From contig NZ_CP040517.1 in the NCBI RefSeq assembly GCF_005849285.1, positions 626,501 through 690,500 of the forward strand: a stretch of DNA of 64,000 bases, written 5' to 3'. The position numbers and the translations under genes are program-made. Positions 1-18,834 of this stretch are shown here, one piece after another (the first letter of the stretch is position 1; every line of letters starts with the position of its first letter). This DNA is from Luteithermobacter gelatinilyticus. Its GTDB lineage: Bacteria; Pseudomonadota; Alphaproteobacteria; Sphingomonadales; Emcibacteraceae. The notes below the pieces were generated by a model. That model saw only the letters and a list, made by a program, of their open reading frames with translations. It searched no databases and had not been told where the DNA came from.

Positions 1-359
1 GGTTACGATGGGAACCGCTGCATCGGACGGTTCACCGGTTGCGCAAGCATAAACATAAATGGCTTGGGTTGCGAGTTTTATCCTCCCCCGGCCCGCAAGA
101 TTGCGAACTTGAACAAATTCGGGAGCTGGTGGAAATTTTTAATTTCCTGCAACCGCTGCTTTTCACGGGTCGGAATCGGTGCCTGTTTCAATCCCTGGCC
201 CTGCTAGAGTTTCTGGCCGGTTACGGGATTTTTCCCGACTGGGTTTTCGGGGTCAAAATGAAACCTTTCGTTGCCCATTGCTGGCTGCAGACGCATGGGG
301 TGGTTCTCAACGATACGGTGGATCATGTAAGCCTTTACACGCCCATCATGATCGTTTGA
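1..359 (+). CDS. Lasso peptide leader peptidase B (B2 domain), 3' part only
   Basis: The frame is open back to base 3, so the gene starts left of the window; about 118 C-terminal residues are seen. They match the transglutaminase-like cysteine protease of lasso biosynthesis (B2/PF13471), which removes the leader from the precursor before ring closure. Visible marks are the catalytic Cys in NRCLFQSLALLEFL, the His in FVAHCWLQ and the Asp in VLNDTVDHV, followed by the typical LYTPIMIV end. In proteobacteria B usually also has an N-terminal leader-binding domain; that part would be outside the window. The stop lies 12 bases before the C gene, whose SD sits in the gap, so the two are one transcript. 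The internal TTG at base 39 is not a credible start because homology should extend upstream of it. Confidence 0.85.
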   Translation, partial: LRWEPLHRTVHRLRKHKHKWLGLRVLSSPGPQDCELEQIRELVEIFNFLQPLLFTGRNRCLFQSLALLEFLAGYGIFPDWVFGVKMKPFVAHCWLQTHGVVLNDTVDHVSLYTPIMIV

Positions 360-371
360 AAGGGGGAATTC

Positions 372-2198
372 ATGTATAGATATGTTGCCTTGACTTGGGA
401 TCAGGAGAATGCCCAGGCAAGGGAAGCCGTGCGTGACCTGATCGCAGCAATGGAGGGGGAGGCCGAGGGCTGGCGGAAGGTTCTAGCGGTGGACGGTTTC
501 ATGGTCTGGCATGTCGGGGAAAGAGAGGGCCGGATGCAAACCTATCTGATCCGGAATGACGCTGGCCTGGCAGAAGGTGGCGTCGTTTTGGGAAAACTCT
601 TCAAAAGAGCGACGGCCCAACATTTGGTTCCGACATGTCTGGACGGGCCGGAAAGCCATTCTATTATCCATACAAAGGGACGACATCTCACCACAAATTA
701 TTGGGGGCGCTATGTGGCCTTTATCCGGGATGAGAAAGGAGATGGGCTGAATATTTTGCGCGATCCCATCGGCTCCTTCCCCTGTTACTATATGCGCTAC
801 CGGATGGTGGAGATCTATTTTTCCTATATGCCGGATATCCGGAAAATTACAGGAATGTCTTTTTCCATAAACTGGGATCATGTGGCCCATTTTATGGCTT
901 ATGGTCCCCAGAAAACGGAACAGACCGGCCTCGGGGAAGTCTCGGAACTGTTACCCGGCCAATGTCTGGAAACGCCTTTTCCGGACAATGATCCGTCCTT
1001 TTACTGGTCTCCGGCGGATATTGCCCGGAACGATCCGTTAGAGGATATCGAGCAGGCAGCAAGGGAACTGCGGCAAACGACCCGCCATTGCGTGGCGGCC
1101 TGGGCGGCTTGTTATAACAATGTTTTTCACAACCTGTCCGGGGGGCTGGATTCCGCTATTGTGCTGAATTGCCTGAAACAGGCGGCTGTGCCGCCGCGCA
1201 TCAGTTGCATAAATTACTTTACCGAGGAGCGACAGGGGGATGAACGCTGTTACGCCCGGCTTGCTGCGGAGCAGGCCAGTGTACCGCTTTATGAAACCTG
1301 CCTGAGCAGTGCAAATATCAGCCTGAGAAGGGTTCTGCGTCTCATAAAAGAAGCCAAGCCGGGCAATTATCTTTATGAGCGGGCCCGGGATCATTTTGAG
1401 CCCACTTGGATCAGGGAAATCGGGGCGGAGGCCTGTTTTTATGGTTCGGGCGGCGATAATGTATTTTTCCAACCGGAAACGCATCTCGGCGCCGTTGACT
1501 TTGTGCAGTCCCACGGGCTGAGGTCGCTTTTATGGCGGGTTGCGCTGGAAGCGGCCCGGCTGGACCGGCGCTCCGTCTGGTCAGTTCTCACCATCCTGTT
1601 GAAGCAATGTTTCCTGAAATCCTATGATCGCATGAAATACATACGCAATGGTTACAAGACATCCCTGATGGCCCCGGATCTTATAGAAACGCTTGATCCG
1701 TCAAGGGTTTTGCATCCCGTTTTACGAATGGAGGAGCATATCCCGCCCGGCAAGTTTTTTCATATTTTTATTGCCACGAGTTGTCCGGACTATTACGAAC
1801 CGCTGGAACGGAAAGAAGATTTCCTGGAGCCGGTGTTGCCGCTGTTTTCACAGCCTCTTGTAGAGTTGTGCCTGAGAATCCCGACCTGGATCATGACCGC
1901 GGGCGGGCGCGAGCGCGGGCTGGCGCGTCGGGCGTTTTCCGATCATATTCCGCAGGAAATTGTCCGGCGGGAAGCAAAGGGCGGGGCGGACATTCTGTAT
2001 CATGCCGTGCTCAAGAGGAATTTACCCTTTGTAAAGGAGATGCTGCTGGACGGGCTTCTCGTGCGGCAGGGTTTGTTACAGCGGAAAGGCCTTGAAAAAG
2101 TCCTGTCCGGGGATGATCATTCGGTTTCTGCGGAACTGGTCAAGATATTGTTTCATGTGGGCACGGAAGCCTGGGCGAGGGATTGGTACAAAGGATAA
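372..2198 (+). CDS. Lasso peptide macrolactam synthetase C (asparagine synthase-like)
   Basis: 608 residues, the usual length for lasso C proteins. It adenylates the side-chain carboxylate of the ring Asp/Glu of the core peptide and joins it to the new N-terminal amine. The N-terminal half resembles the class II glutaminase fold but lacks Cys at position 2, so it should not hydrolyse glutamine, as expected for this family. The ATP-binding PP-loop SGGLDSA is at residues 256-262 and a second nucleotide-site motif, YGSGGDN, is near 357-363. An AAGGGGG ribosome site lies about 6 bases before the ATG. The last 46 bases overlap, tail to tail, the 3' end of the broken isopeptidase gene on the other strand. 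Together with the upstream B gene this identifies the locus as lasso peptide biosynthesis. Confidence 0.9.
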   Translation: MYRYVALTWDQENAQAREAVRDLIAAMEGEAEGWRKVLAVDGFMVWHVGEREGRMQTYLIRNDAGLAEGGVVLGKLFKRATAQHLVPTCLDGPESHSIIHTKGRHLTTNYWGRYVAFIRDEKGDGLNILRDPIGSFPCYYMRYRMVEIYFSYMPDIRKITGMSFSINWDHVAHFMAYGPQKTEQTGLGEVSELLPGQCLETPFPDNDPSFYWSPADIARNDPLEDIEQAARELRQTTRHCVAAWAACYNNVFHNLSGGLDSAIVLNCLKQAAVPPRISCINYFTEERQGDERCYARLAAEQASVPLYETCLSSANISLRRVLRLIKEAKPGNYLYERARDHFEPTWIREIGAEACFYGSGGDNVFFQPETHLGAVDFVQSHGLRSLLWRVALEAARLDRRSVWSVLTILLKQCFLKSYDRMKYIRNGYKTSLMAPDLIETLDPSRVLHPVLRMEEHIPPGKFFHIFIATSCPDYYEPLERKEDFLEPVLPLFSQPLVELCLRIPTWIMTAGGRERGLARRAFSDHIPQEIVRREAKGGADILYHAVLKRNLPFVKEMLLDGLLVRQGLLQRKGLEKVLSGDDHSVSAELVKILFHVGTEAWARDWYKG

Positions 2199-3924
2199 AA
2201 TAACATTTCCCCGACGCATAGCCTCACGGCGCGCTCAGATATTTTTGCAAAAATGCGTATGATCCGCCGGGTGGCGTCCAAGGCGTTTTGGCGACGCCAG
2301 TTCTCGATCACATGGCCTTCGCCGTCATAGAGGGCCAGTTGCGCGGTGCGGCCCAGACGGTGCAGGGCGTTGAACATTTTCTCGCTTTCCTCGGGCAGGT
2401 GGTCTTCGGTGCCCTGCAGCAACAGCAGCGGCGTCCTGATCCGGTCCGCCAGGTCGTAGGGGGAGTTTTCCAGATATCGCCGGGGATCCTCCCAGGGGGA
2501 GGCACCCATGCGGCCCTGGCCGTCCTCGTAATAGGTTGCGCCGAACATCATGTCGTTCAAAAAGCGGCCATAGGTGCCCGCCGGATCATAAAGGCCGGAA
2601 ATGGCCACGGCCGCCTTGAACAGGTTGGTGCGGGTCAGGACGCCGTCGGTGCTGTAGGCACCGTAAGACTGCCCCATCAGCGCCAGCCGCTCAAGATCCA
2701 CATACCCCAGTTCGGCCGCCCGATAGATCTGCGGCAGCAGGGCGTCGGTAATGATTTTCAGGCTGTTGACGGCCTGGCCCGGCGGCGGCATCGGCACATG
2801 GGTCAGCACCACGGCGTATCCGCGACCGGTCAGGGCCCGGGCCGGCACCGTCGCCGGGAAGCCGCCGCCATACTGTGACGCATACCAGGTCAGGTCGCTT
2901 TGCGGATAAATTATGACGACTGCCGGCGGCGGGGCGTCCTTTTCGTCCTTTTGCGGGCCGGGGCGGGGCGGCATCAACACCGCGCTTGTGATCTTGACAA
3001 TTCGTCCCCCCGGCATGGGGATTCTGCTGTCGAAATAGTGAACCTTGCCACTGGGCAGTTCATTCAGGCGGGGATCTATGGCGCTCAGCCGCTCTTTCCG
3101 GGAAAAATCCCCGGAAAACGGGTACAGGTCGGGAGGCGTGGCGTAATCTTCATAGGCCGCCAGGATAAAATCATGATGGCCGCCGCCAGTCATATGGCTG
3201 AACCGGCCTTTGCCCTGCCAGAGGACGCGAGGGGACTTCTCCCCGGGAGTGAGGCTCAGGATGGCCTGTTCGTCCGTGCGGACGTTGCGGGCCCGGATGA
3301 TTAGGGCCCGCCCGTCCGGCTGCCGGGGCGAGTGTTTTCTGAAGGGGCATGAGGGGCGAATTTGGGCATCAGCGGCACATAAACCGTCCGGTTATCGGCC
3401 CCCCAATAGGGTCCGGAGGCGACAAAGGGGGTCATCCGGATCCTGGGCGTGGCGATCGGGCGGCACTTGTCGCCGGTCCGGTCATAGAGCCAAAGCTGCG
3501 GCGTTCCGCCAGCGTTTGAATAACCGGCGTCTGAATAAAAGGGCAGCCTCCGGCCATCGGGCGACCAGACGGGAAACCACTGCTGACCTGCGGGCGCACA
3601 AATCTGGCGCGCGGCGTCCCGGTTTTTGAAGGAGCGGACATAAATGCGGATGCCGACGACCGTGGTGGGAAGCCCGCCCGCAGTGTAATAACCGTCCCGG
3701 TTGATGTTGGCGGGCGGGGTCCGGACCACAAACGCCAGATGAGCGCCGTTTGCGGAGACGGCCACGGCGCCTTCTTCGGGAAACTGCCGCTGGTTGAAGA
3801 CCAGTTCATCGACGACCTCGCGGGGGTGGTCGGCGGGACCGGCAGCGGCGGCAAGCACCGCGCCTATAAGGAAAATGAACCCCAGGCCCCCTTGCTTCAA
3901 AAGGCGGAATATCAAGGACGTCAC
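2153..3924 (-). pseudogene. Second lasso isopeptidase (S9 family), broken by frameshift and internal deletion
   Basis: Two - strand frames make up one damaged gene. The first (3924 to 3301) starts at a GTG with AGGAAAG about 7 bases upstream, has a signal peptide, and covers the first propeller blades. The second frame is open from about 3391 to 2153 and carries the end of the propeller (recognisable from ALIIRARNV onward) plus a complete alpha/beta-hydrolase domain. Numbered from its first ATG (3193), Ser176 in GQSYG, Asp264 in GTEDH and His294 in GEGHV form the triad. Compared with the intact neighbour, roughly 150 residues of propeller are missing at the junction, so one base change would not restore a full protein. 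The hydrolase half has no secretion signal. Most likely a decaying duplicate; production of a fragment cannot be excluded. Confidence 0.7.
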
Positions 3925-3961
3925 GGCAATCTTTCCTGTATGGCAATCTTTCTTGTGCGGC

Positions 3962-6139
3962 TCACGATGGATCTTCCTTATTCCGGTGCTGCCGGCGTAA
4001 TTTTTCCCAACGCTCATATTGCGCCGCCTTGGTGGGGTCTGGATCCTTCACGTCCCGCAGCCAGAAATTGAACCAGTCCACATTGCGCCGGTGGACGTTA
4101 TAACGGTGCGCGGGATGCCATTTCACATGATGTTCATCGGGAAAGACGCGCATCTCAATGGGCTTTTTTGCGACATTCCAGGTGATCACCGTCTGGATGG
4201 CGTGCAGATATTCCCGGTCGGCGGCTTGGATAAGCAGCGGCACGTCAATTTTATCCGCATTCAGGGCCAGGGAGAATTGCGGCCAGTTTTTGCCCTGTTC
4301 CTTGTCGAACGGATTGCCGAAGCCCAGGGGATGGAAAAAACTCTCCCGGCTGAAGGCGGTGGAGCCGAAATAGCTGATCGGTTCCGAGCCGCCGCCGGAG
4401 GTGGCCGCCGCCGCAAAGGCCCGGGAATGGATCAGCGCATATTGCAAAATCTCCACCCCGGCGCTGAGCCCGGTAAGGCCGACCCGGCGCGGATCAATCA
4501 CGCCCCGTTCGGCGAGCCGGTCGATGATGGCTTCGAGGGAAGACAGGCTTTGCTTGTGTTTGGCGAAGTCGCCATATTCCGCCCGCAGAATGGCGTGGGG
4601 ATCGGCGAGGGTTCTGTAAATTTCCGGATCGACGCCGGTTTGGGAAAAACACAGCACGACGAAGCCGTTGGCGGCGAAGGCGTGGGTCGGAAATTCATTA
4701 CCCGTGCCGCCGCGCAGGCATTCGTCCGGCGAATATTGCACAATGATCATGGGATAGCGTTTTGCGGGATCGAAAGCGGGCGGCTTGACGAGATAGGCCC
4801 AGGTTTTGCGGCCATACTCATTTTCCCAGATCAGGCGCTCCACCGGGCCGAGGCGGACCTGCCGGAATTCCGGATTGGGGTCCAGCACGACGGCCAGGTC
4901 GCCGCTTCTCAGATTCAGTGAAACGATCCGTCGCGGCACGGTGGGGGTTTCCACAAAACAGACCACCCGGTCCTGTGCCGGGGCACAGTCGGAAATCCAG
5001 TCGGTGGTGGCATAGATGGGACGTACCCTCGCCGCCCTTGGGGTCCAGCCGTAAAAGGCGCGCCTGCCGTATCCTTCCTGTTTCTGGAAGATCACCTCCT
5101 TTTCGTCAAGCCACCAGACATTAACGATGGCTCCCCTGCATTCCGGGGCCGGGCAGGCCGTGGCGGCCACATGATCGAGTGCCGCGCCGTCGGGGAATGA
5201 GGCGGCCATGAGCCGCAGCGGCGGCAGCGCGCCGGGATATTTTTCCGGATCCGCATTTTCCAGCCAGGCGGCGCTTGCGCCCTTGTCGGAGAAGACGACA
5301 TTGCGGGCGGCCGGTCGGCCGGGAAGTGCGGTCGGACGGACCAGGTCTTCATAGGCGCCGCGGTCGGCGTCGCTCGCCTTTCGGACCTGTCCACTGGCAA
5401 GGTCTTGCCGCCAGAGCCGGGGCGTGCCGCCGGCAAAATGATAGGGCGGATAGAACGGCCGGGCTTCGTAAAAAGGATTGAACAGCGCGTCATCCACCAG
5501 ATAGCCCTCCTCAGCGGCGCGCCGCTTTTCCGCATTGATCCGGGCCCGCGCCGCGCCGGTCGTAAAAAACAGGGACCGTCCCGCCGGGTCCAGCCGGAAA
5601 CCGGTTACGTCGGCGGCGGAGGTGGTGACCTGCTGTTGTGCGCTGCCGTCCCGGCGGCTGCGCCAGACCTGGGTTGCGCCGTCGGTTCTGCGCCGGTAAT
5701 AGATCCATTCGCCGTCTGCGGACCATTGCGCTTTCATGCTGGCCCAGCCGCCCTGGGGATTTTGGAACAGTAACGGATCCCCCGCATCCCCCACATTTAT
5801 GGCTTGGGCGCCGGGCGTTATGGCCGCCACGAACCAGGCGACCCGGTAGCTGTTGCTGTCGATGTCGGCCTGATGGGCTTCAAAGGCCACATGCCGGCCG
5901 TCCGGCGACAGGCTCAGGCCCCGGCCGCCCATGCCGCCAATGGTGCGCAGCGTGACGATATCGGCGATGGTGACGGGGCGGGAGGGCCAGATCTCTTGCG
6001 GCGCGGCGGCTGGAATTTGAAACTCCCGGGAGTTTTGCGGACCGGGGTTTTCAGGCAGGCTTGAATAGGAGTTTTCGGGGTTGCTACAGGCGGCGAGGAA
6101 AAAACAGCTTGTCATCACCGCCATGAAGAATCGGATCAT
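3962..6139 (-). CDS. Lasso peptide isopeptidase, Atxe2-type S9 peptidase, lipoprotein
   Basis: 725 residues. Enzymes of this family hydrolyse the isopeptide bond of a threaded lasso peptide and linearise it. An N-terminal lipobox (LAAC, Cys18) predicts a membrane-anchored periplasmic lipoprotein. A beta-propeller spans about residues 50-430 and a prolyl-oligopeptidase-like hydrolase domain about 450-700, with nucleophile Ser559 in GLSAG, probable Asp641 in AADREY and His670/671 in DEHHVKW. It lies downstream of the TonB receptor gene in the same direction (129 bases between the stop of one and the start of the other), and about 37 bases before the broken paralogue, so all three were probably co-transcribed. 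The neighbouring B and C genes make this role much more likely than a general dipeptidyl peptidase; the specific substrate is unknown because the precursor is not in the window. Confidence 0.88.
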   Translation of the reverse strand: MIRFFMAVMTSCFFLAACSNPENSYSSLPENPGPQNSREFQIPAAAPQEIWPSRPVTIADIVTLRTIGGMGGRGLSLSPDGRHVAFEAHQADIDSNSYRVAWFVAAITPGAQAINVGDAGDPLLFQNPQGGWASMKAQWSADGEWIYYRRRTDGATQVWRSRRDGSAQQQVTTSAADVTGFRLDPAGRSLFFTTGAARARINAEKRRAAEEGYLVDDALFNPFYEARPFYPPYHFAGGTPRLWRQDLASGQVRKASDADRGAYEDLVRPTALPGRPAARNVVFSDKGASAAWLENADPEKYPGALPPLRLMAASFPDGAALDHVAATACPAPECRGAIVNVWWLDEKEVIFQKQEGYGRRAFYGWTPRAARVRPIYATTDWISDCAPAQDRVVCFVETPTVPRRIVSLNLRSGDLAVVLDPNPEFRQVRLGPVERLIWENEYGRKTWAYLVKPPAFDPAKRYPMIIVQYSPDECLRGGTGNEFPTHAFAANGFVVLCFSQTGVDPEIYRTLADPHAILRAEYGDFAKHKQSLSSLEAIIDRLAERGVIDPRRVGLTGLSAGVEILQYALIHSRAFAAAATSGGGSEPISYFGSTAFSRESFFHPLGFGNPFDKEQGKNWPQFSLALNADKIDVPLLIQAADREYLHAIQTVITWNVAKKPIEMRVFPDEHHVKWHPAHRYNVHRRNVDWFNFWLRDVKDPDPTKAAQYERWEKLRRQHRNKEDPS

Positions 6140-6268
6140 CGCAGGATCTCCGTATGAGAAATATTCAGGACGATATATCGGATGAAAATGTCCCGGGCGA
6201 TGCGTCCTGGAGATTTTCAGGTCTTATCGCCCGGGGCAAAGGGTAAAAATTTTCCGCGTCAAGGGCCC

Positions 6269-9037
6269 TTACCAGTTTTTGGTGATCTGGAAAGAGATGA
6301 ACCGGCCCAGCGCATTGGCGTTGTTGGGGTCGAAATTTGTTTCCTGCCCCCCGAAAGCGGCGGCCACGAAGGGCGGATCCTCGTCAAACAGATTCTGGAC
6401 GCTGAACTGGAACTGCAAATTATTGAACAGGGAATTACTGAAACTATCCCTGGTGTTATAGGTCAGGGTCAGGTCAATCGTGGTCCAGGAATCGACCGGT
6501 GTTTCAGGGTCTGTCCGGTTGTCGGAATAACTGTCCACATAATTGATGAAAACATTTGTGGAAAACCCATTATGATTCCAACCGACAGTGCCCCGCAGTT
6601 TTAGGTCAACCGGATTATAAGGCGTATCCACCAGATCCACAGGATCGTCTGTCGGCAGGAGTTGTTCCTCCTGTTCAAACAGATAGGTGCCGCTGACGCC
6701 AAGGTTCCAGCTACCGAAGTTGCTGTCGAACCCGTAGGCAATGTTGAAATCAAGCCCACTGGTTTCCACCGTGGCGAAATTGCGTAGGCGGCCATCAAAA
6801 AAGGCTTCGGCAGTGAAAGGATCTGCGCCGCCACTGAAATCAAAAAAGTTACTGGGAGGCGTCGTGAGCTTGGTAATCAGAACCGGATCAGGGTCTAAGG
6901 TGATCAGAGAACTGAAACGGGGGTCAAGAAAGACATCAAAAAACGCAAATTCACTATCGATCCTGTCCTCGAACTTGATGTTGAAATAGGTCAACCCCAG
7001 GGTAAGCCCGGGAATGCCTTGCGGTTGGTAGTCAAGCCCGGCGGTCCAGGTGGTTGCTGTTTCCGCCGTAAGGTCGGCATTGTTGCCGAATCCGATCAGT
7101 GTCAGTGTGGTGCCAGTGGGCGAAGCGGGATTCGGCGCATTCAGCAGAATACTGGCGAGATTGATTTCCGCCAGTTCTGTCAGCAACGGCGCCCGGAAGG
7201 AGGTGCCGAAGGTGCCGCGCAGATTAAGGCCGCCGACCGGAGACCAGACAAGCCCGAATTTGGGATTGGTGGAAGAACCGAAGTCGCTGTATTCCTCGTG
7301 ACGGACCGCGGCGCTGAACTCCAGACGTTCAAGGCCAGGCCGACGATTGTCTTGGCTGACAAACGGGAAAAACAGCTCCCCGAAGAAGGCCGTGACGGTC
7401 CGTTCCTGATCCAGGGGAACCCTGCCCTCCGCCATTGAGAGCGGATCTTCAAGAGTTTCTTTCCTGAATTGGGTGCCGATGGCGCCTTTCACATCTCCTC
7501 CGGAAAGGGTGAATAACGTGCCATCGGCTTTGGCGTCGATGGACCACAGGGCGTTGATCGACTGGTTTTCCCCGCTGTCGAAGGGCTCATCATCCGTATC
7601 CACCGGGAAAAAGAATCTTTCAAAGGCGCTGTCCAGTTCGGTGCGGCTGTAGGTGGCGGCCACTTCTGCCTGCCAACTCTGGCCAATATCTACGGTTGTT
7701 CCGAAGATGCCGCCATATTGCTTGGTGGTGCTGCTGCTGAACTGAATGTTGCTGCCGACATTGCTGCCAAATGATCTTTCGCTGTCCCGTTCGCTGTAAA
7801 AGGCGGTCGCGAACAATTCCACGCGTTCTTTGAGTTCCTGGCGGCCGGTGAAAAAGACGCTGTGACGTTCCTGCCGCGGGATCAAATCGGTAGGGTCTAT
7901 GACGTCTTTTGTAAAGGAGCGGTCTTCGGAATCAAGCGGCGTGCGTTTGTAATATTCATAGCTGATCAGTGCATTGCCGCCTCGCCAGTTGGTGCCGAAA
8001 GTCTGGCCGACCTTATATTCTTCACTATCACCATCGGTGACGGTGCCGTAGCGGAGCCGGGTTTCCGCTCCCTCATAATCCTTGCGAAGTTGAAAATTGA
8101 CCACTCCGCCCACGGCGTCGGAGCCGTAAATGGCGGAGGCCCCATCGGTCAGGACCTCGACCCGTTCAATGGCGCTTAAGGGAATCAGGGAAACGTCCAC
8201 AAACTGACCGTTTCCAGAAGCGGATATCCGGTGGCCATTCAGCAGGATCAAAGAGGAATCACTGCCCTGACCGCGCAAATTAACGCCGGTGCCAAGCCCC
8301 AGATTGCTCTCATTGGGGCCTGCTGGGGCCAGTGTCGGGTTAAACTCTGCGATGCCGCCATTAAAGTTTTGCGGCATACGGCGAATAATGTCCTGAGGGG
8401 TGGCCAAGCCAGTTTTGTCGAAGTCCTCGCGATCAAAAGTAAAGACTGGGGATGCGGACCGGGCGCCCCGAATATGGGAACCGGTGACGATGATTTCCTC
8501 CAGAACCATGGCTTCTTCCTCTGTTTCAGCCATAGCTATTTGTTCTTCCCTGCCGGGTTGCTGTTGGCTCTGATCTGCCTGGTTTTGTTGAAGGCGGGCA
8601 TGGGCGGCGTTTCCGGCAGAAGAGGAATTGAGGTGCAGTTGGCTGTCCTGGTCGGACGCGTTGCTGATAATGGTCACCGTACCATTACCGCTGATCCGGT
8701 AGCGCAGGCCGCTTCCAGCCAGAAGGCGGTCAAGCGCTTCTTCCGGTGATAAAATACCATTCACGTCAGGGGCCTGAAGATTGTTCACCAGATCGCCGGA
8801 GGTCACGACCACATAATTGGATTGTTCGGAAAAACTGATCAACGCGGTGGAGAGCGGCTGCGCCGGGATGGAAAACTTCTGGTCGGCGGCCTGGGCGGCA
8901 GTACCGCAAGTGAGTGCCAATAGCGTGGTGGCCGCCAAGGTTTTCAGAAGACTGGTTTTGCCGTTTTTACCTTCGGTTGCAAGGTGGTGGGGATGCTGCG
9001 TATTTTGGAACATTGTGTCCTGTGAATCCTTTAACAT
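6269..9037 (-). CDS. TonB-dependent receptor with STN signalling domain
   Basis: 922 residues from the ATG at 9037, preceded by GGGAGG at 5 bases; an upstream in-frame ATG at 9115 would add a low-complexity head and lacks such a site. Order of parts: signal peptide (LLALTCGTAAQA), secretin/TonB short N-terminal (STN) domain, a Gln-rich linker, a TonB box-like EEIIVTGSHI, plug domain, then a 22-strand barrel ending in an aromatic residue (Trp). The STN domain is the part that contacts FecR-type anti-sigma factors, and fecR and ECF sigma genes lie directly upstream. In isopeptidase-type lasso loci the receptor is thought to import the lasso peptide; here the STN domain implies that binding also signals inward. 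An iron-siderophore receptor is the alternative if location is ignored. Confidence 0.88.
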   Translation of the reverse strand: MLKDSQDTMFQNTQHPHHLATEGKNGKTSLLKTLAATTLLALTCGTAAQAADQKFSIPAQPLSTALISFSEQSNYVVVTSGDLVNNLQAPDVNGILSPEEALDRLLAGSGLRYRISGNGTVTIISNASDQDSQLHLNSSSAGNAAHARLQQNQADQSQQQPGREEQIAMAETEEEAMVLEEIIVTGSHIRGARSASPVFTFDREDFDKTGLATPQDIIRRMPQNFNGGIAEFNPTLAPAGPNESNLGLGTGVNLRGQGSDSSLILLNGHRISASGNGQFVDVSLIPLSAIERVEVLTDGASAIYGSDAVGGVVNFQLRKDYEGAETRLRYGTVTDGDSEEYKVGQTFGTNWRGGNALISYEYYKRTPLDSEDRSFTKDVIDPTDLIPRQERHSVFFTGRQELKERVELFATAFYSERDSERSFGSNVGSNIQFSSSTTKQYGGIFGTTVDIGQSWQAEVAATYSRTELDSAFERFFFPVDTDDEPFDSGENQSINALWSIDAKADGTLFTLSGGDVKGAIGTQFRKETLEDPLSMAEGRVPLDQERTVTAFFGELFFPFVSQDNRRPGLERLEFSAAVRHEEYSDFGSSTNPKFGLVWSPVGGLNLRGTFGTSFRAPLLTELAEINLASILLNAPNPASPTGTTLTLIGFGNNADLTAETATTWTAGLDYQPQGIPGLTLGLTYFNIKFEDRIDSEFAFFDVFLDPRFSSLITLDPDPVLITKLTTPPSNFFDFSGGADPFTAEAFFDGRLRNFATVETSGLDFNIAYGFDSNFGSWNLGVSGTYLFEQEEQLLPTDDPVDLVDTPYNPVDLKLRGTVGWNHNGFSTNVFINYVDSYSDNRTDPETPVDSWTTIDLTLTYNTRDSFSNSLFNNLQFQFSVQNLFDEDPPFVAAAFGGQETNFDPNNANALGRFISFQITKNW

Positions 9038-9347
9038 GTATGCCTCCCGGATATGATTTGTTTGTCTTTGGATTTTTGGGGTTGGGATTTTTGGGGTTGT
9101 CTGGTTATCCTTCATTAAGAAGAGTTAGGTATTCCCAAGGCAATGTGTCAGATATCCGCCTCGGCACGGGGCGGTTTTGGGCGATATGATCTGGTCATGC
9201 ATTGGTAATACAGAAGACGTAAAATCCCTTCTCACAGGGACATTTTTTTATGTTTCGGTTTTATGTTTTGGGGTTTTATGTTTTGGCGATCAGGTCTGGC
9301 GTTCTGCCATGGGGCAGGCCAAAAGCAAAACAAAAGCAAGAAATGTG
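9038..9347 (-). promoter_or_regulatory. Gap between fecR and the TonB receptor gene
   Basis: 310 bases without a gene. It holds a perfect tandem duplication of 15 bases (GGATTTTTGGGGTTG on the + strand, 9070-9084 and 9085-9099) just upstream of the receptor start, and a short 5-bp hairpin (TCCCT/AGGGA, 9225-9240). The receptor promoter recognised by the local ECF sigma factor would be expected here, but I could not identify a convincing -35/-10 pair. Confidence 0.35.
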
Positions 9348-10445
9348 TTATTGAGGTTTTGTTGTGATTCGGACCTGCCTTCCAGGATCATGGATGACCT
9401 TGATGGGGAGGGCATCAGACAGGGCTTCGATCATCTGGTCAATCTGATCTGTGCGAAATGCGGCGGTCACTTTCAAGTCTCCCACGTCTTCAGGTTCAAT
9501 CACAATGGGAATATGGGAGTATCTGTTGGCATCCGCAATGACTTCGCGTAGGGTGGCGTAGTTATAGACAAGATGTCCTTTCAACCAGGCGTCCGGCTTC
9601 CTGCGGGGCTGGGCGATAATTTTGCGAAGCGGCTTGTTGTATTCCGATTCCAGTTGCTGGCCGGCCTTGACCGGCTGAAACTCTGTGGCGGGAATGGACA
9701 GGGCCAGAGACTGTGATTCCGGTCGGGCCTTGACCGGCGTTTTGGGAAAGGTTTTGGCCACTTCAACCTTACCTTCAAGAACGGAGACAATGACTTTCCG
9801 GGGGGCGTGATGGACATTGAATTTGGTGCCGGTGACCCGGATGACAGTATCCTGGGCCAGCACCAGAAAAGGCCGTAGGGGATCCTTGCTGACGGAAAAG
9901 AAGGCTTCTCCCCTGTTGAGGATAACCCGGCGTTCTGTATCTGTGAATTCAAGAGTAATCTGGGAATTTGCGCCCAAGGTGACATTGCTGTTGTCCGGCA
10001 GAACCAGGTCGCGAATTTCGGCAATCTGCGTCTGATATTGGGTGGCCGGCGACAGCAATGTGGCAACCAAGGCGACACCGACAATCATAAACAGCGCGAA
10101 CACCCCCGCGGCGATGGCACCGCTCCGGAGGGGGGGGCCTGGTTTAAGGATGTGCAGAATTTTGCGGCTTGCGCTGTTAGGTATCTCCTCATTGGACAGG
10201 TGACGCGGTTCAATGTGGTGGATTTCTTCAACCATGGCAGCTCCCTGCCAGACCGCTAAAATCTGGTTATAGGCGCGACGATGAACTGCTGAAAGGTCAA
10301 GCCATGCCTGAAAGGCTTGCCGGTCTTCATCGTTTGCCTGCCCAGATTCAAGATGGACAATCCATTTCATCGCTTGTTCCTGAACAGATTCCGCCGGAGA
10401 AGAGGAGTTAGGGCGAAATGGAGGATGTTTTCCTGGTTTTTTCAT
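9348..10445 (-). CDS. FecR-family anti-sigma factor / sigma regulator
   Basis: 365 residues with the family layout: an N-terminal cytoplasmic DUF4880 region (about residues 24-70, with MKWIVHLESG and FQAWLDLSAVHRRAY), one transmembrane helix (about 107-131), the periplasmic FecR domain (VLPDNSNVTLGANS onward) and a C-terminal DUF4974/STN-like domain (about 285-360). It relays the state of the TonB receptor across the inner membrane to the sigma factor encoded 8 bases upstream. Gene order sigma-fecR-receptor is the classical fec arrangement. Expression is probably coupled to the sigma gene. Confidence 0.9.
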   Translation of the reverse strand: MKKPGKHPPFRPNSSSPAESVQEQAMKWIVHLESGQANDEDRQAFQAWLDLSAVHRRAYNQILAVWQGAAMVEEIHHIEPRHLSNEEIPNSASRKILHILKPGPPLRSGAIAAGVFALFMIVGVALVATLLSPATQYQTQIAEIRDLVLPDNSNVTLGANSQITLEFTDTERRVILNRGEAFFSVSKDPLRPFLVLAQDTVIRVTGTKFNVHHAPRKVIVSVLEGKVEVAKTFPKTPVKARPESQSLALSIPATEFQPVKAGQQLESEYNKPLRKIIAQPRRKPDAWLKGHLVYNYATLREVIADANRYSHIPIVIEPEDVGDLKVTAAFRTDQIDQMIEALSDALPIKVIHDPGRQVRITTKPQ

Positions 10446-10453
10446 GGATGTTT

Positions 10454-11077
10454 CTATTTGCTGGATTTTGGCATTTCATCAGTTGGAGTGGAGGGGGCGC
10501 TGTTTTTATATATTTTTGCCATCTCTGTGGTGCATTTTTTCAGAGCCCGAAAGACATGCTTTTTGACATTTTCTTCCTTCAGTCCCATTTCTTCGGCGAT
10601 TTCCCTGTAACTCAACCCATATACGCGGTTCAACACGAAGATGCGACGGGGCTTGGCGGGCAAGTTTTCTATGACTGTCTTCAAAACGGCCAGCCGTTCG
10701 CGATCCAGAGCAATATGTTCCGGAGAAATGCCATGACCGGGCTCGTGCCAGCTTTCCAGCGGCACTTCTTCCATATGTTTGGCTTTCACCTGCCGCCGGC
10801 GCGCTCTGTCGATAACAATATTCCGGGCGGTTGTGTATAAAAAAGCCCGGGGGTTACGTAGCGTCTGGGGGTCTGTGAGGGCGGCCAGTCGGGTGAAAGC
10901 CATTTGGGTAATGTCCTTGGCTTCCTGACTGCGCCCGTTGACCATACGTCGCAGGTAACGGTAAAGTTCATCACGATACCGCTGATAACTTTCTTTTAAA
11001 AAACTGTCGCGCCGTTTCAGCATCATGCAGTTCTGTGGTCCGTTCCCAGACAATCGAGTGTCAGAATGACTTTTCAT
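10454..11077 (-). CDS. ECF sigma factor, FecI-like
   Basis: 207 residues with sigma-2 (YRDELYRYLRRMV...AFLYTTARNIVIDRARR) and sigma-4 (RIFVLNRVYGLSYREIAEEMGL) regions and no sigma-3, as in ECF factors. It starts at an ATG with AGGGAT five bases upstream; a TATAAT hexamer (- strand, 11103-11098) is placed to give a very short leader, although no good -35 is visible. It should direct transcription of the receptor and isopeptidase genes downstream when FecR is signalled. The B and C genes are on the other strand and may or may not belong to its regulon. Confidence 0.9.
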   Translation of the reverse strand: MKSHSDTRLSGNGPQNCMMLKRRDSFLKESYQRYRDELYRYLRRMVNGRSQEAKDITQMAFTRLAALTDPQTLRNPRAFLYTTARNIVIDRARRRQVKAKHMEEVPLESWHEPGHGISPEHIALDRERLAVLKTVIENLPAKPRRIFVLNRVYGLSYREIAEEMGLKEENVKKHVFRALKKCTTEMAKIYKNSAPSTPTDEMPKSSK

Positions 11078-11601
11078 TTTATCCCTATTTGGGATTTATT
11101 ATAAGTGTATTTGCATGTTTTGGTTTTATGCGGGAACCTCATATTCGGAATTATTCCCTCCTTTATGGGGTATTGACCATTTGGGGTCGGGGGATCTGAA
11201 ACTGTCGCGTGATGGCCGGTAAGCCGCTATTTGGATTAAAATGTTATCCTTTTGATGCTCATAAGACGCAAAAATCTATATTTAGGGGACATTTTTTGAT
11301 CTTTTGGTTGGTAAATATCCTGGATAATGAATGGAATAAAGGCAGGCTGCGGTAAAGAAGGGCGGCGGGCATCCGGACCCGCGGCTGTCCGCCCAGTTGG
11401 CCGCCAGTCCTTCTCATTTGGGTCGTCCGGAGCCGGCGGTATCTTCCTACGGAGGAAAGATCTGTGCATTTTGGGGCCCCGCCCGGCCAATGCCGCTGTT
11501 GATAAGGGGCTCTTATCCTATAGACGTCTGAGCCCCCAAAAAGGGACAATTTTTATTTCAAGAAAAGGAAGGGAGAGGGGCATAAATGACGCTTCGGGGG
11601 A
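11078..11601. other. GC-rich region with nested inverted repeats between sigma and luxR
   Basis: No convincing gene. Nested pairings are visible at 11361-11393 (GGCGG with CCGCC, enclosing GCGGG with CCCGC) and GGGGCTC/GAGCCCC at 11506-11512 and 11530-11536. The short frames on both strands here lack ribosome sites and family resemblance. The stretch is 3' of luxR and 5' of the sigma gene on the - strand, so it could be a 3' untranslated region, a leader or an independent RNA. I could not match it to a riboswitch class. Confidence 0.3.
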
Positions 11602-11612
11602 TTATGGCGTCA
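11587..11612 (-). terminator. Possible terminator spanning the luxR stop codon
   Basis: TGACGC and GCGTCA pair around the luxR stop codon on the - strand, followed by ATTTATG. The stem is short (6 bp) and the U-run weak. Confidence 0.3.
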
Positions 11613-12300
11613 TCAATCCCCGCCGCAGGGCCGTCATCACGGCCATAGCGCGGGTGGACACATCGAGCTTTTGGTAGATGTCGCGGATATACCCATTAAC
11701 GGTGTGTTCGCTAATGCCCAGAATTTTGCCGATTTCCCAGGAAGACTTGCCTTGAGCAACCCATTTCAGGCAGTCGATTTCCCGGGGAGTGAGGGGAGAA
11801 GAGGATGGCGGCACGGTGTTTAACGTCATCAGACAGATATGAAATTGCAGGGCCAGTAGCATCAACCGGTTATATATTGTTTTTCGGATTGCTCTTTTTT
11901 CCGGCCCAGCAAAAGACAGCAGGATGAGCCGCCCATAAGGGCCGAAAAGCGGGAGGGTCAGGCCCCGCTCCAGCCCGAATTGTTCAGCTTCTTGCATCAA
12001 CTGCTTTTGGGGGGCGGTGAGGGTGTCGTCGTTTCGGAGTTTTTTCCATTCCAGCCCGAGCGGACATCGGGGACAATATTGCAGCACGGGGTCGATATTC
12101 TGATAATTCCGGGCCAGATAATGATTGATCCAATCCTGCGGATAGCTCACACCATATGTTTGGGTTTTTCCCGTTTCACTGAGGATGACGCAGGCCAGGT
12201 ACGGGAATCCAAGATCGTGTGCTGCCTCACACAGCAGTTTAAATAGTTCCCTGGGGGTTTCGGCCTGTTGGCTTTCTTTAATGTAACGGGACAATTTCAT
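11602..12300 (-). CDS. LuxR-type regulator with autoinducer-binding domain, no LuxI neighbour
   Basis: 232 residues: an N-terminal autoinducer-binding-like domain (about 10-150) and a C-terminal LuxR helix-turn-helix (SPLTPREIDCLKWVAQGKSS...SEHTVNGYIRDIYQKLDV). The Trp, Tyr and Asp that line the acyl-homoserine-lactone pocket appear in the expected spacing in DWINHYLARNYQNIDPVL. No luxI synthase is present in the window, so it is either a solo receptor of an external signal or belongs to a synthase elsewhere. It lies upstream of and in the same direction as the ECF sigma gene, 524 bases apart, so control of the lasso import genes is possible but unproven. Confidence 0.88.
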   Translation of the reverse strand: MKLSRYIKESQQAETPRELFKLLCEAAHDLGFPYLACVILSETGKTQTYGVSYPQDWINHYLARNYQNIDPVLQYCPRCPLGLEWKKLRNDDTLTAPQKQLMQEAEQFGLERGLTLPLFGPYGRLILLSFAGPEKRAIRKTIYNRLMLLALQFHICLMTLNTVPPSSSPLTPREIDCLKWVAQGKSSWEIGKILGISEHTVNGYIRDIYQKLDVSTRAMAVMTALRRGLMTP

Positions 12301-12496
12301 CGCTGTTCCGTCCGGTGGCGTGCCCTGTGTGTTTTAGGCGTATCGAAATATATAAATTACGACTATAGATTGTGTTATTTCATTAAAATTGTAATAAAAT
12401 CAAAGACTTTTTTAGGAATTTAAGATATCTTCTATATACTAACACACCAATAAGTTTATTTCAATTCGTTTTGCTCCGGGGCTGTGTGATCAGTGG

Positions 12497-12524
12497 TGGG
12501 TCAACCTATTCGCAATTCACTCTA
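12497..12524 (-). repeat. Palindromic intergenic repeat, copy 1 (left arm decayed)
   Basis: Contains GTCAACCTATTCGCAATTC followed by ACTCTA, i.e. loop and one full arm of the repeat in the orientation of copy 6 (31149). The partner arm is not recognisable. Confidence 0.65.
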
Positions 12525-12678
12525 GGGATGGTGATGCAGGGAATCAGTTTTTGCCTTCTGTGTGAAATATTTTAGGGGGTTTTAACATCAATGACATAAA
12601 GGTCGATCATATAGAAGGGCGATATTCTTGTGGCTCTGAGGGGCCCCTGAGAAAGAGCGGAATAGTGCATAATGATGA

Positions 12679-12702
12679 GGCCATCTTTTCACAATTCACT
12701 CT
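12679..12702 (-). repeat. Palindromic intergenic repeat, copy 2 (half copy)
   Basis: TTCACAATTCACTCT preserves one arm and part of the loop; the rest has diverged. It lies about 50 bases before the phosphatase start. Confidence 0.55.
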
Positions 12703-12752
12703 GGATCACGGGCCACAGGGCAATATAGAGCAAAAGGTAGAAAGGAATGTAT

Positions 12753-14249
12753 ATGAAGCCGATGGGCGTCGTTGGGGCGGTAATGTTGTTGTGGTGCACC
12801 CTGATTTTGGCGGGGTGCCACGAGGTGCAGACGGATATCCATTCTGAGACGGCGCCGCCTGAAAAATCTGGTTCTGAAGAATCCGGTCCTGAGAAAGCCA
12901 AGAATGTGATTTTGTTTATTGGTGACGGGATGGGGGTCAGCACGGTCACGGCAATCCGTATTCTGGACGGGCAAAGGAAAGGTCTTGCGGGGGAGGATAA
13001 TGTTCTGTCCTGGGAGAAATTCCCGCATCTGGCCTTGGCCAAGACCTACAATACCAATCAGCAGGTGCCGGATTCCGCCGGCACAGCCACGGCCATGGTC
13101 ACCGGGCACAAAACCAAGGCCGGTCTGATCAGTGTATCGGCACAGGTAACGCGCGGTGCGTGTGCGTCCGCAAAAGACCAGCGGCTTCAGACCCTTCTGG
13201 AGCGGGCGGAGCGGGCCGGTCTGTCAACCGGGGTTGTGACCACGGCACGTCTTACCCATGCCACCCCCGCCGCCCTTTATGCCCATGTCCCGGAACGGGA
13301 CTGGGAAGCTGATTCTGACATGCCGGCGGAGGCGTTGGCACAGGGGTGTCGTGATATTGCCCGCCAGTTGATCGAATTTTCCGAAGGAGATGGCATTGAG
13401 GTGGCGCTGGGTGGCGGCCGGCGGGCTTTTTTTCCGCAGTATATGAAAGATCCGGAAACCGGCGCACCGGGCCGGCGCCGGGACGGGCGGAACCTGATTG
13501 AGGAATGGCTGGATAAACATAAAGGGGGACGTTATGTCTGGCGCGCCGAGGATTTTCGAGCTATTTCTCCCGAAGACACGGATCGGCTGCTGGGCTTATT
13601 TAATGCCAGTCATATGCAGTATGAAGCGCAACGGAGCCGGGATCAGGGCGGAGAACCCTCTCTGGCGGAGATGACGGAAAAGGCCATCAGGATCCTGGAA
13701 AAAAATGACGCCGGGTATTTCTTGATGGTTGAGGCCGGCCGGGTGGACCACGGCCATCATGCCGGCAGCGCCTATCTGGCGCTTCATGACGGTATCGCGC
13801 TGAATCAAGCTGTCGAACAGGCGGTGCGCATGACCAATCCGGACGATACTCTGATCATTGTTACCGCCGATCATTCCCATACCTTTGTGATGGCGGGTTA
13901 TCCCACTCGCGGCAATCCGATTCTGGGAAAGGTGGTCGGCAATGATGACAGAGGTTCCCCGGAAACGGCCCCGGCGCTAGCCGCCGATGGGAAGCCTTAT
14001 ACAACCTTGGGATATTATATGACCCCCCAAGGGCTTCGGCAGGGAGAAGACCGAGCGGACCTTGGTCCTGTGGACACAGAAGCGCCTGAGTTTCGTCAAC
14101 AGGCGCTGATCCCCGTTCGTACCGGCCATCATGCTGGTGAGGATGTGGCCATCTATGCGACCGGTCCGGGCGCCGCTAAAGTGCAGGGGGTGATGGAACA
14201 AAATAAAATTTTCGACGTGATGATAAAGGCGCTTAACTTGCCTCTGTAA
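12753..14249 (+). CDS. Alkaline phosphatase, PhoA-like, lipoprotein
   Basis: 498 residues from the ATG at 12753: AAAGGA ends directly at the ATG at 12747 but stands 6 bases before this one. Phosphate monoester hydrolysis in the periplasm or at the outer membrane; the lipobox (LAGC) predicts lipid anchoring. Family motifs are the metal ligand region FIGDGMG, the nucleophile Ser in PDSAGTATAMVTG, VEAGRVDHGHHAG, the late metal ligands TADHSHTF and TGHHAGEDVAIYATGP. All metal ligands and the nucleophile that can be recognised are present. It stands alone, followed at once by a repeat copy and a hairpin terminator. Phosphate starvation control would be usual but is not visible. Confidence 0.93.
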   Translation: MKPMGVVGAVMLLWCTLILAGCHEVQTDIHSETAPPEKSGSEESGPEKAKNVILFIGDGMGVSTVTAIRILDGQRKGLAGEDNVLSWEKFPHLALAKTYNTNQQVPDSAGTATAMVTGHKTKAGLISVSAQVTRGACASAKDQRLQTLLERAERAGLSTGVVTTARLTHATPAALYAHVPERDWEADSDMPAEALAQGCRDIARQLIEFSEGDGIEVALGGGRRAFFPQYMKDPETGAPGRRRDGRNLIEEWLDKHKGGRYVWRAEDFRAISPEDTDRLLGLFNASHMQYEAQRSRDQGGEPSLAEMTEKAIRILEKNDAGYFLMVEAGRVDHGHHAGSAYLALHDGIALNQAVEQAVRMTNPDDTLIIVTADHSHTFVMAGYPTRGNPILGKVVGNDDRGSPETAPALAADGKPYTTLGYYMTPQGLRQGEDRADLGPVDTEAPEFRQQALIPVRTGHHAGEDVAIYATGPGAAKVQGVMEQNKIFDVMIKALNLPL

Positions 14250-14251
14250 GT

Positions 14252-14283
14252 TAGAGTGAATTGTGCAGAGGTTGGCTCAATTC
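14252..14283 (+). repeat. Palindromic intergenic repeat, copy 3 (right arm partial)
   Basis: TAGAGTGAATTGTG, then the AGGTTGGCT loop and CAATTC; the last arm bases have diverged. It starts two bases after the phosphatase stop codon. Confidence 0.75.
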
Positions 14284-14330
14284 TGTTGGCGGATCACGCC
14301 ATGACTTGAGCTCCAGATATTTTGACAGGA

Positions 14331-14370
14331 AACTGCCCTTCTCGAATGGTGGGAAGGGCAGTTCTTTGAT
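14331..14370 (+). terminator. Rho-independent terminator after the phosphatase gene
   Basis: AACTGCCCTTC pairs with GAAGGGCAGTT around a short loop, followed by CTTTGATTAT. Strong stem, weak U-run. Confidence 0.55.
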
Positions 14371-14372
14371 TA

Positions 14373-14398
14373 TAATTAACACTTATAATGTGTAATTA
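14373..14398. promoter_or_regulatory. Inverted repeat in the AT-rich region upstream of cysD
   Basis: TAATTAACAC is mirrored by GTGTAATTA with a 7-base centre. It lies in about 100 bases of very AT-rich DNA, roughly 195 bases before cysD, and is a candidate operator for sulfate assimilation control. The regulator is unknown. Confidence 0.3.
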
Positions 14399-14593
14399 TT
14401 TGTAATATACACATATATTTTTCCAAAAACTTATAATTACCATTGTTTTTTTGTTAATGTGTCGTTATGTAAAGGGTCTGAGAATAAAACGGAAGAAAGA
14501 AGCGATGCTCTTTCATTAACCGGGAAATATGTTACGGAAAATATGGTATAAGCGGGTCTTCCGGATGAAGTTGGCGTTGAAAAGAGAAGAAAT

Positions 14594-15493
14594 ATGGACC
14601 TGACACATTTGAAAAGGCTGGAGGCCGAAAGCATTCACATCATCCGCGAAGTGGCGGCGGAATGTCAAAATCCGGTCATGCTGTATTCCATCGGCAAGGA
14701 CAGCTCCGTAATGCTTCATCTGGCGATGAAAGCCTTTTATCCCTCCCGGCCGCCTTTTCCGATTTTGCATGTGGACACCACCTGGAAATTCCGCGAAATG
14801 ATTGAGTTCCGGGACCGCATGGCGGCGGAGCTGGGCCTGGACCTGATCATCCATATCAATGAAGAAGGCGTGGCCCGGAATATCGGGCCCTTTACCCACG
14901 GGTCCGCCGTTCATACCGATGTGATGAAAACCCAGGCGCTAAAACAGGCGCTTGATAAATACGGCTTTGATGCGGCCTTTGGCGGCGCACGCCGGGATGA
15001 GGAAAAAAGTCGTGCTAAGGAACGGGTGTTTTCCTTCCGCTCCGCCCAGCATCGCTGGGACCCGAAAAATCAGCGACCTGAACTGTGGCGGCTTTATAAC
15101 AGCCGCATCAATAAAGGGGAAAGCATCCGGGTATTCCCGTTGAGCAACTGGACGGAACTGGACATCTGGCAGTATATTTATCTGGAAAACATTCCCATCG
15201 TCCCACTTTATTATGCCAAGGAGCGCCCGGTGGTGGAACGGGATGGCATGCTGATCATGGTCGATGACGACCGTATGCCGCTCGAACCCGGCGAGACGCC
15301 GCAGATGAAAAAAGTACGTTTCCGCACCCTGGGCTGTTACCCGCTCACTGGCGCCATAGAATCCGAGGCTGATACCTTGCCAGCGATTATTCAGGAAATG
15401 CTGCTGACGCGGACCTCGGAACGGCAGGGCCGGGCCATTGACAAGGACACCAATGCTTCCATGGAACAGAAGAAACAGGAAGGATATTTCTGA
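14594..15493 (+). CDS. cysD: Sulfate adenylyltransferase small subunit
   Basis: 299 residues, full length for CysD. With CysN it forms ATP sulfurylase, which makes adenosine phosphosulfate (APS) from ATP and sulfate in the cytoplasm. The PP-loop-type motif is in [15 protein letters not shown] near the N-terminus, and the family block [20 protein letters not shown] is intact. AAGAGAAGAA lies just upstream of the ATG. The TGA stop overlaps the ATG of cysNC by one base (TGATG), so the two are translationally coupled. The small subunit catalyses adenylyl transfer, while the CysN GTPase drives the reaction. Confidence 0.96.
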
Positions 15494-17427: not shown

Positions 17428-17448
17428 AGCTTCGTAAAATATCATGTG

Positions 17449-17479
17449 AGCGGCCGTTTGGGCCGCTTGACGTGTTTTT
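17449..17479 (+). terminator. Rho-independent terminator of cysD-cysNC
   Basis: AGCGGCC/GGCCGCT stem with a 5-base loop, then TGACGTGTTTTT. Confidence 0.6.
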
Positions 17480-17553
17480 GCCTGTCTCTCTCGAAAAATA
17501 CGAGACATTTACAAACCGGATTGTTAAGTTTCCTCCCTCACCAGTAGGGCTTT

Positions 17554-17585
17554 GGATCATAAGGGGCCTTGACCTCTTATGATCC
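17554..17585. promoter_or_regulatory. 10-bp perfect inverted repeat upstream of the flavin reductase gene
   Basis: GGATCATAAG and CTTATGATCC with a 12-base loop, about 55 bases before the start codon at 17642. No U-run follows, so an operator or leader hairpin is more likely than a terminator. Confidence 0.35.
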
Positions 17586-17641
17586 TTGGTCTGTAATTGA
17601 GGCTTTAAAAACAATATATAATATATAAAGGCATTTAAGAG

Positions 17642-18136: not shown

Positions 18137-18183
18137 TCCCCGAAGACGGACTCCGCAAGTCTCAAAAACAGGAGCAGATGGAG

Positions 18184-18798: not shown

Positions 18799-18834
18799 TT
18801 CCGAACGCAAACGACAGCGGAGAAATGCACAGAC

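Follow-up and report, generated by a model that had tools for sequence, protein, structure and literature searches.

The lasso peptide locus and its flanking LuxR genes

We analysed a stretch of 64,000 nucleotides from Luteithermobacter gelatinilyticus, hereafter the window (contig NZ_CP040517.1, positions 626,501 to 690,500). The genome, G000, is a single contig of 3.15 Mb, in which the window is G000:C1:626501-690500. Mapped genome stretches carry L-numbers, and L002 is the stretch that extends the window to the left. The left end of the window is part of a gene set that is predicted to be complete for the production, re-import, sensing and opening of a lasso peptide (Table 1). The initial annotation had described part of a lasso B gene and a C gene on one strand, and an isopeptidase, a TonB-dependent receptor with an STN domain, a FecR protein and an extracytoplasmic function (ECF) sigma factor on the other. 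Domain matches confirmed these genes and their strands. As also stated there, an ATP-binding cassette (ABC) exporter is missing: none was labelled by our own ABC profile model in L002 1-8000 and window 1-20000.

Table 1. Features of the lasso locus and its flanks, from left to right (aa, amino acids; MITE, miniature inverted-repeat transposable element).
Feature	Coordinates	Strand	Evidence and remarks
LuxR-type regulator (LuxR-up)	L002:6092-6862	+	Autoind_bind 78.4, GerE 62.6 bits
Candidate precursor A1	L002:6978-7094	+	38 aa, MLKKIGAVSEETR/GFDGNYLEIPANPTNLRRTPMSSDD, slash at inferred cleavage
Candidate precursor A2	L002:7120-7236	+	38 aa, MLKKHGFVSKETR/GIEGNFLEVPANPTNLRRTPLPPND, slash at inferred cleavage
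MITE-like element, ~300 bp	L002:7289-7584		between A2 and B; 28-nt inverted ends
Lasso B, full	L002:7634-8359 = G000:C1:626134-626859	+	241 aa; NF033537 lasso B2 67.7 bits, cut-off 33
Lasso B, 3' part	window 1-359 (frame 3-359)	+	Transglut_core3 65.8 bits; gene cut by window edge
Lasso C, asparagine-synthetase-like cyclase	window 372-2198	+	Asn_synthase 72.1 bits
Second S9 peptidase, C-terminal piece	window 2153-3193	-	Peptidase_S9 80.8 bits; NF033523 only 48.5
Second S9 peptidase, N-terminal piece	window 3301-4017	-	PD40 27.3 bits
Lasso isopeptidase, Atxe2 family	window 3962-6139	-	NF033523 'Atxe2 family lasso peptide isopeptidase' 629 bits, cut-off 400
TonB-dependent receptor with STN domain	window 6269-9115	-	barrel 115.6, Plug 67.4, STN 47.7 bits
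FecR-type anti-sigma/sigma regulator	window 9348-10445	-	FecR 81.0, DUF4880 48.5, FecR_C 24.4 bits
ECF sigma factor	window 10454-11077	-	Sigma70_r4_2 66.0, Sigma70_r2 46.7 bits
LuxR-type regulator (LuxR-down)	window 11602-12300	-	Autoind_bind 106.5, GerE 66.9 bits

The isopeptidase matches the AtxE2 structure 5txc (E 2.7e-97), and its Ser, Glu and His align opposite the AtxE2 positions counted as 527, 610 and 638, which we take to be the catalytic triad. The C protein scored below the NCBIfam lasso-cyclase cut-off (57.4 vs 525 bits). Between C and the isopeptidase (window 2153-4017) lies a second S9 peptidase, absent from the initial annotation, in two pieces, which are in different reading frames. 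That it is a recent copy of the isopeptidase was rejected, since the NF033523 match is too distant.

The core of the locus is a known isopeptidase-type lasso cluster. A near-constant layout has been described for such clusters, with a GntR-like regulator before the precursor, and a TonB transporter and a sigma/anti-sigma pair after the isopeptidase (PMC9266682; this and all other papers are cited from the available parts of their texts). The title of the initial annotation, a lasso locus wired to a FecI-FecR-TonB receptor set, thus describes a known kind of locus. As in the astexin, benenodin and sphingopyxin clusters of the AtxE2 family, A-B-C lies opposite the isopeptidase, TonB receptor, FecR and ECF genes, and no ABC exporter was found. 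The G000 locus differs from these by two flanking LuxR-type genes and the absence of a lasso gntR, by two tandem precursors with inferred leaders of 13 and cores of 25 residues, by the split second S9 peptidase and by the insertion element between A2 and B. The signalling genes resemble FecI-FecR-FecA (ECF sigma factor, FecR with DUF4880, STN receptor). They differ in that a lasso isopeptidase follows the receptor gene, and in that one clade of relatives dropped FecR and STN.

The initial annotation had pointed to the sequence left of base 1 as the place of the precursor and had regarded a lack of one there as fatal to its reading. This sequence holds the full-length B gene and two tandem candidate precursors, and the reading therefore stands on this point. 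The order is a LuxR-type gene, A1, A2, the MITE-like element and B. Each precursor is preceded by an AGGAG-like site and has a leader with ETR as its last residues, followed by a core with Gly first and Glu eighth (assigned by eye). Both thus carry Thr at -2, Gly1 and Asp or Glu at core position 7-9, a rule for lasso precursors that is also given in PMC11006600. The leader motif IGAVSEETR resembles motifs pattern-picked upstream of B in several relatives. Library matches were weak for A1 (Subterisin, E 0.046) and absent for A2, and the identification as precursors therefore rests on position, motif and duplication. Sphingocin of Sphingomonas BPH (PMC11006600) is similar: its DLGSVTEETK-G is close to IGAVSEETR-G, it has a C-terminal SDD, and its cluster has an isopeptidase and a TonB receptor and no ABC transporter. 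It differs by a longer leader, and the available description of its cluster does not mention LuxR or LuxI.

In both flanking LuxR proteins the N-acyl-homoserine lactone (AHL) pocket positions W, Y, D, P, W and G are conserved (TraR numbering). The place of the lasso gntR before the precursors is taken by LuxR-up. The nearest GntR labelled by the model, at L002:1984, was rejected as the lasso gntR, as it has an FCD domain and adjoins an acyl-CoA ligase gene. In a LuxR tree both flanking proteins group with the lasso-linked LuxR of another genome, G024 (support 100/98), and the two LuxR proteins of G000 that are paired with LuxI at other sites cluster with those of lasso loci in G001 and G076 (99/93). 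These placements are provisional because the LuxR-up branch is long and LuxR-down and three relatives drew a composition warning. LuxI matches in G000 are strong at 799645 and 1645196 and weak at 1157645. Both strong loci carry a LuxR gene, and no GntR or PhyH was found there by profile model. Across a gap of 446 bp from LuxR-down, an alkaline phosphatase gene (window 12747-14249, 475.5 bits) points away from it, and MITE-like ends similar to those of the element before B are visible between the two genes.

Linkage to LuxI and LuxR across the order

Among 396 genomes of the order, 68 were found to have an isopeptidase over the cut-off, at 86 loci in all. Of these 86 loci, 49 have a LuxI at a distance of at most 10 kb, compared to 0.70 predicted from genome sizes and LuxI counts; at 15 kb the numbers are 53 observed and 1.01 expected. 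The numbers for LuxR, for which 134 of 137 rows were used, are 52 of 86 within 10 kb (1.09 expected) and 55 of 86 within 15 kb (1.57 expected). Conversely, 53 of the 91 LuxI genes of the 68 genomes are within 15 kb of an isopeptidase. LuxI is present in 63 of the 68 genomes, compared to 10 of 80 congeners without an over-cut-off isopeptidase; these 80 were hand-picked from seven genera and include one (G104) with a truncated match of 369 bits. In two of the ten LuxI-bearing congeners, an isopeptidase-like gene that scores below the cut-off lies near LuxI, at 9 kb in G376 and at 14 kb in G065. Five genomes (G093, G212, G316, G322 and G384) have at least two isopeptidase loci with LuxR near each.

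LuxI was found at 49 of 73 loci with C and at 0 of 12 without C (overlaps were left unfiltered here, hence 49 and not 47). When only loci with flanks of at least 7.5 kb were counted, these numbers were 47 of 63 and 0 of 8. These eight loci (L074, L078, L125, L129, L130, L132, L137 and L149) have an isopeptidase and a receptor and show neither B nor C over about 20 kb; ECF and FecR are present at seven. It is possible that they are listeners for peptides made elsewhere. We also inspected 20 LuxI stretches without an over-cut-off isopeptidase within 15 kb (18 of 38 from the 68 genomes and 2 of 13 from the comparison genomes). Seven of them (L157-L161, L170 and L171) hold C and an isopeptidase-type gene, one (L162) has isopeptidase-like genes and neither B nor C, and the other 12 carry no label for B, C or isopeptidase.

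A total of 105 stretches was mapped with our own profile models, and 85 of these cover the 86 loci, as two loci share one stretch. The receptor is present in 85, ECF in 80, FecR in 72, C in 73, B in 67, GntR in 63 (including the unrelated one of G000), LuxR in 51 and LuxI in 47 stretches (matches above 60 bits, overlaps filtered, contig ends uncorrected). In 55 of 59 LuxI loci, with those of plasmids counted, luxI is followed on the same strand by gntR at a distance of up to 3 kb; phyH was detected between them in 38. The luxI-phyH-gntR run is also found on annotated plasmids of Sphingomonas paeninsulae, Novosphingobium PP1Y and Novosphingobium ES2-1. Eight lasso-locus GntR proteins, three of them as partial frames, have a Pfam GntR match and no FCD. 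The AHL pocket is largely kept among 59 lasso-linked LuxR proteins (W in 55, Y in 37 or F in 19, D in 59, P in 57, W in 59 and G in 59).

LuxR-LuxI systems of sphingomonads were described previously (Gan et al. 2015, PMC4288048). They have the same autoinducer-binding and GerE domains with a largely kept AHL pocket, and luxI followed by phyH was noted there as well. The systems described here differ in their position next to a lasso cluster with its gntR; the words 'lasso', 'asparagine' and 'TonB' do not occur in the available text of that paper. No report of a link between lasso peptides and AHL quorum sensing was found among the open-licence papers listed by our searches, judged by titles and abstract openings, or by term searches in the available parts of PMC4288048, PMC13352647, PMC6163740 and PMC11024222. 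Within what was searched, the AHL quorum-sensing link of isopeptidase-type lasso loci looks new.

A scan of named genomes that used one isopeptidase as the query gave three loci (34%, 27% and 38% identity), and named examples were therefore taken from plasmids. We analysed 13 of 15 matching plasmid records, leaving out H4 and H14, which duplicate H3 and H13 in species and scores. In a class-level sample an isopeptidase match was found in 2 of 210 genomes, one of them from another order, which is represented by 5 genomes; Caulobacterales was not reached in this way.

Several loci have an unusual composition. In L063 and L072, B and C are accompanied by an ABC transporter as well as an isopeptidase, as in the rubrinodin cluster (PMC9266682). 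In the same family as the window, L064 (G002:C1:3223001-3243000) has two isopeptidases, two B-C pairs and one receptor set. Short C-terminal isopeptidase-model fragments at G000:C1:3033060-3033200 (L068, 74 bits) and 33198-33428 (L067, 47.7 bits) are possibly remnants of other lasso loci.

Candidate control sites and a possible STN-FecR module

Many predicted luxI starts are preceded, at about 30-70 bp, by an 18-base palindrome of approximately AT(T/C)CCCA-N4-TGGG(G/A)AT. A model built from 12 sites was used with a threshold of 13 bits, and 13 of the best luxI sites are training sites. At this threshold the palindrome was found before 33 of 52 luxI genes. It was also found before 7 of 79 ECF genes, and these are 7 of the 11 loci that have ECF and lack FecR, compared to 0 of the 68 others. 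It is rare before luxR (2/59), gntR (1/65) and receptor genes (1/94), and was not found before FecR (0/76), B (0/72), C (0/76) or isopeptidase genes (0/93). Sites of 14 bits occur 23.6 times per Mb in the real loci and about 1.9 times in a simulation, which was run once with a quarter of the loci. Three of the FecR-less loci without a palindrome before the sigma gene (L097 at ~1368, L098 at ~18537 and L099 at ~1429) carry one of 14.0-18.7 bits on the far side of luxR, at a distance of about 1 kb and ahead of a different open frame.

A blind paired 4-mer search before receptors and before B gave a receptor signal not above shuffles, and one lead that led to an ECF-type motif, AACTA[AG]GGT-N13-17-[GA]CGTC. 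This motif has 13 occurrences in the loci scanned, all upstream of a receptor gene as the nearest gene; the carriers are the 11 FecR-less loci, L096 and L102. At the G000 locus no ECF promoter was assigned.

We next compared the receptors. By Pfam, 49 of 84 listed receptors were examined, of which all have Plug and 38 have STN. In addition, 93 receptors beside isopeptidase-type genes were scored with an STN model that was built without the STN-less rows from FecR-less loci. STN is absent from all 11 receptors of the loci with ECF and without FecR. It is also absent from the receptor of L063, from the window's own family, where the FecR match is just 114 aa long, and from L069 and L070, which are gene fragments. 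The remaining 79 keep STN (at least 33.9 bits); among these, L074 and L124 are exceptions in having STN and no FecR or ECF in the stretch. In the LuxR tree the 11 FecR-less loci fall into a single clade with 11 rows (100/99). Together with L063, STN and FecR were thus lost jointly about twice. This co-loss fits the two acting as one module. The view of the initial annotation that the STN domain makes the locus a ligand-sensing circuit is thereby strengthened, to the extent of about two losses, although the layout was already known and the LuxR/LuxI layer had been left out.

In all 11 FecR-less loci LuxR is located 1.0-2.5 kb from the sigma gene, compared to 8 of 80 FecR-bearing loci with LuxR within 2.5 kb. 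The simplest reading of the FecR-less loci would be that LuxR controls the sigma factor and this in turn the receptor and isopeptidase. With STN and FecR lost together and LuxR next to the sigma gene, these loci look like a natural case of a sigma factor that exchanged its input.

Proposed control of the locus and alternative explanations

On balance we lean towards a reading, derived from sequence comparison, in which the isopeptidase-type lasso locus would be under two inputs, density (AHL-LuxR) and peptide return (STN-FecR-ECF). For the density input, AHL-type LuxR receptors would control lasso peptide production, and LuxR would bind the palindrome. In most producing relatives this would involve the linked luxR-luxI, followed on the same strand by the lasso gntR, often with phyH in between. 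G000 has a LuxR gene on either side of the locus and lacks the lasso gntR, and its AHL would be supplied by distant luxI genes of the same genome. For the return input, the exported peptide would be the ligand of the TonB receptor, whose STN domain would signal via FecR to the ECF sigma factor. The sigma factor would raise the receptor and isopeptidase, and the imported, threaded peptide would be linearised. As FecR and STN are intact in G000, both inputs may act there. In the one clade of relatives that lost STN and FecR, LuxR is a close neighbour of the sigma gene, which mostly has a LuxR-type palindrome before it. What the sequences themselves show in favour of this reading is the gene content, the linkage, the co-variation of STN with FecR and the positions of the palindromes.

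Several observations weigh against this two-input reading. All linkage counts are uncorrected for shared ancestry, and LuxI is missing from the 10-kb surroundings of 37 of the 86 loci. By the model, LuxI is present in only 3 of the 13 plasmid stretches, and none was found in an Asticcacaulis plasmid stretch or in G408, from another order. The G000 locus itself has no linked luxI, the nearest being about 160 kb away. LuxR solos are common, and the missing luxI is therefore compatible with an AHL receptor. The palindrome of the relatives was not found at the G000 locus (none of at least 13 bits), nor were sites of at least 10.5 bits found in the LuxI loci of G000 (L154 and L155); dyads around the G000 locus were listed, and none was taken as a candidate site. 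The palindrome is missing before B and before 19 of the 52 luxI genes, so that direct control of the precursors by AHL is something we infer.

An alternative is an ordinary isopeptidase-type lasso cluster, in which LuxR and LuxI are co-inherited neighbours without control. The core matches the published layout (PMC9266682), and the 37 loci without LuxI and the 12 LuxI stretches without lasso labels show that lasso cluster and LuxI can each occur by themselves. It is also possible that shared ancestry makes the counts too high. We nevertheless consider this explanation unlikely, as the linkage within 10 kb is far above the 0.70 expected and recurs in the five genomes with LuxR near each of at least two isopeptidase loci. 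Moreover, LuxI is absent from all 12 loci without C, and the sigma-gene palindrome is confined to FecR-less loci.

Decay of the locus in the window, with loss of peptide production, is rather improbable. The MITE-like element between A2 and B, the split second S9 peptidase, the missing linked luxI and the absence of the lasso gntR are in line with decay. However, open frames are present for both precursors, B, C, the isopeptidase, the receptor, FecR, the ECF sigma factor and both LuxR proteins. The 22-base end of the MITE-like element has 253 matches in G000 with at most 3 mismatches (0 for a reversed control), and one insertion therefore says little about decay.

There is also little probability that the peptide is a scavenger or carrier of a metal or hydrophobic compound, with a receptor that senses the loaded form and a secondary density control. 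A siderophore-like cargo is mentioned in a review that calls the function of isopeptidase-type lasso peptides enigmatic (PMC9266682), and a transposon in a lasso B gene of Sphingomonas BPH abolished phenanthrene use (PMC11006600). On the other hand, the A1 and A2 cores are without Cys or His, and at the G000 locus we came across no gene for a cargo, metal binding or a siderophore, for which no systematic search was made. Nothing in these data supports the metal or scavenged cargo that the initial annotation had considered.

That LuxR-LuxI control the conjugation of plasmids or integrated elements, with the lasso cluster as neighbouring cargo, is very unlikely: the PP1Y cluster adjoins trb genes and a luxR-luxR-luxI-phyH-X-virB layout exists in sphingomonads (PMC4288048), but gntR follows luxI in 55 of the 59 LuxI loci, and plasmid clusters beside tra genes can be without LuxI by the model (Sphingomonas panacis, Novosphingobium resinovorum, Sphingobium RAC03 and Sphingobium indicum).

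Beyond the two-input reading, a wider and clearly more speculative idea is that the isopeptidase-type lasso peptides of this order might act as the second tier of cell-cell signalling, in a circuit with two signals. AHL would report density and switch the peptide on, return via the STN receptor would report the persistence of the peptide, and the isopeptidase would end the signal. Loci without B and C would be listeners, and one lineage would have cut the return input, with LuxR taking over the sigma factor. The strong statistical link to AHL quorum sensing and the candidate control sites make the function of these peptides testable, and the link offers sphingomonad quorum sensing a concrete candidate target.

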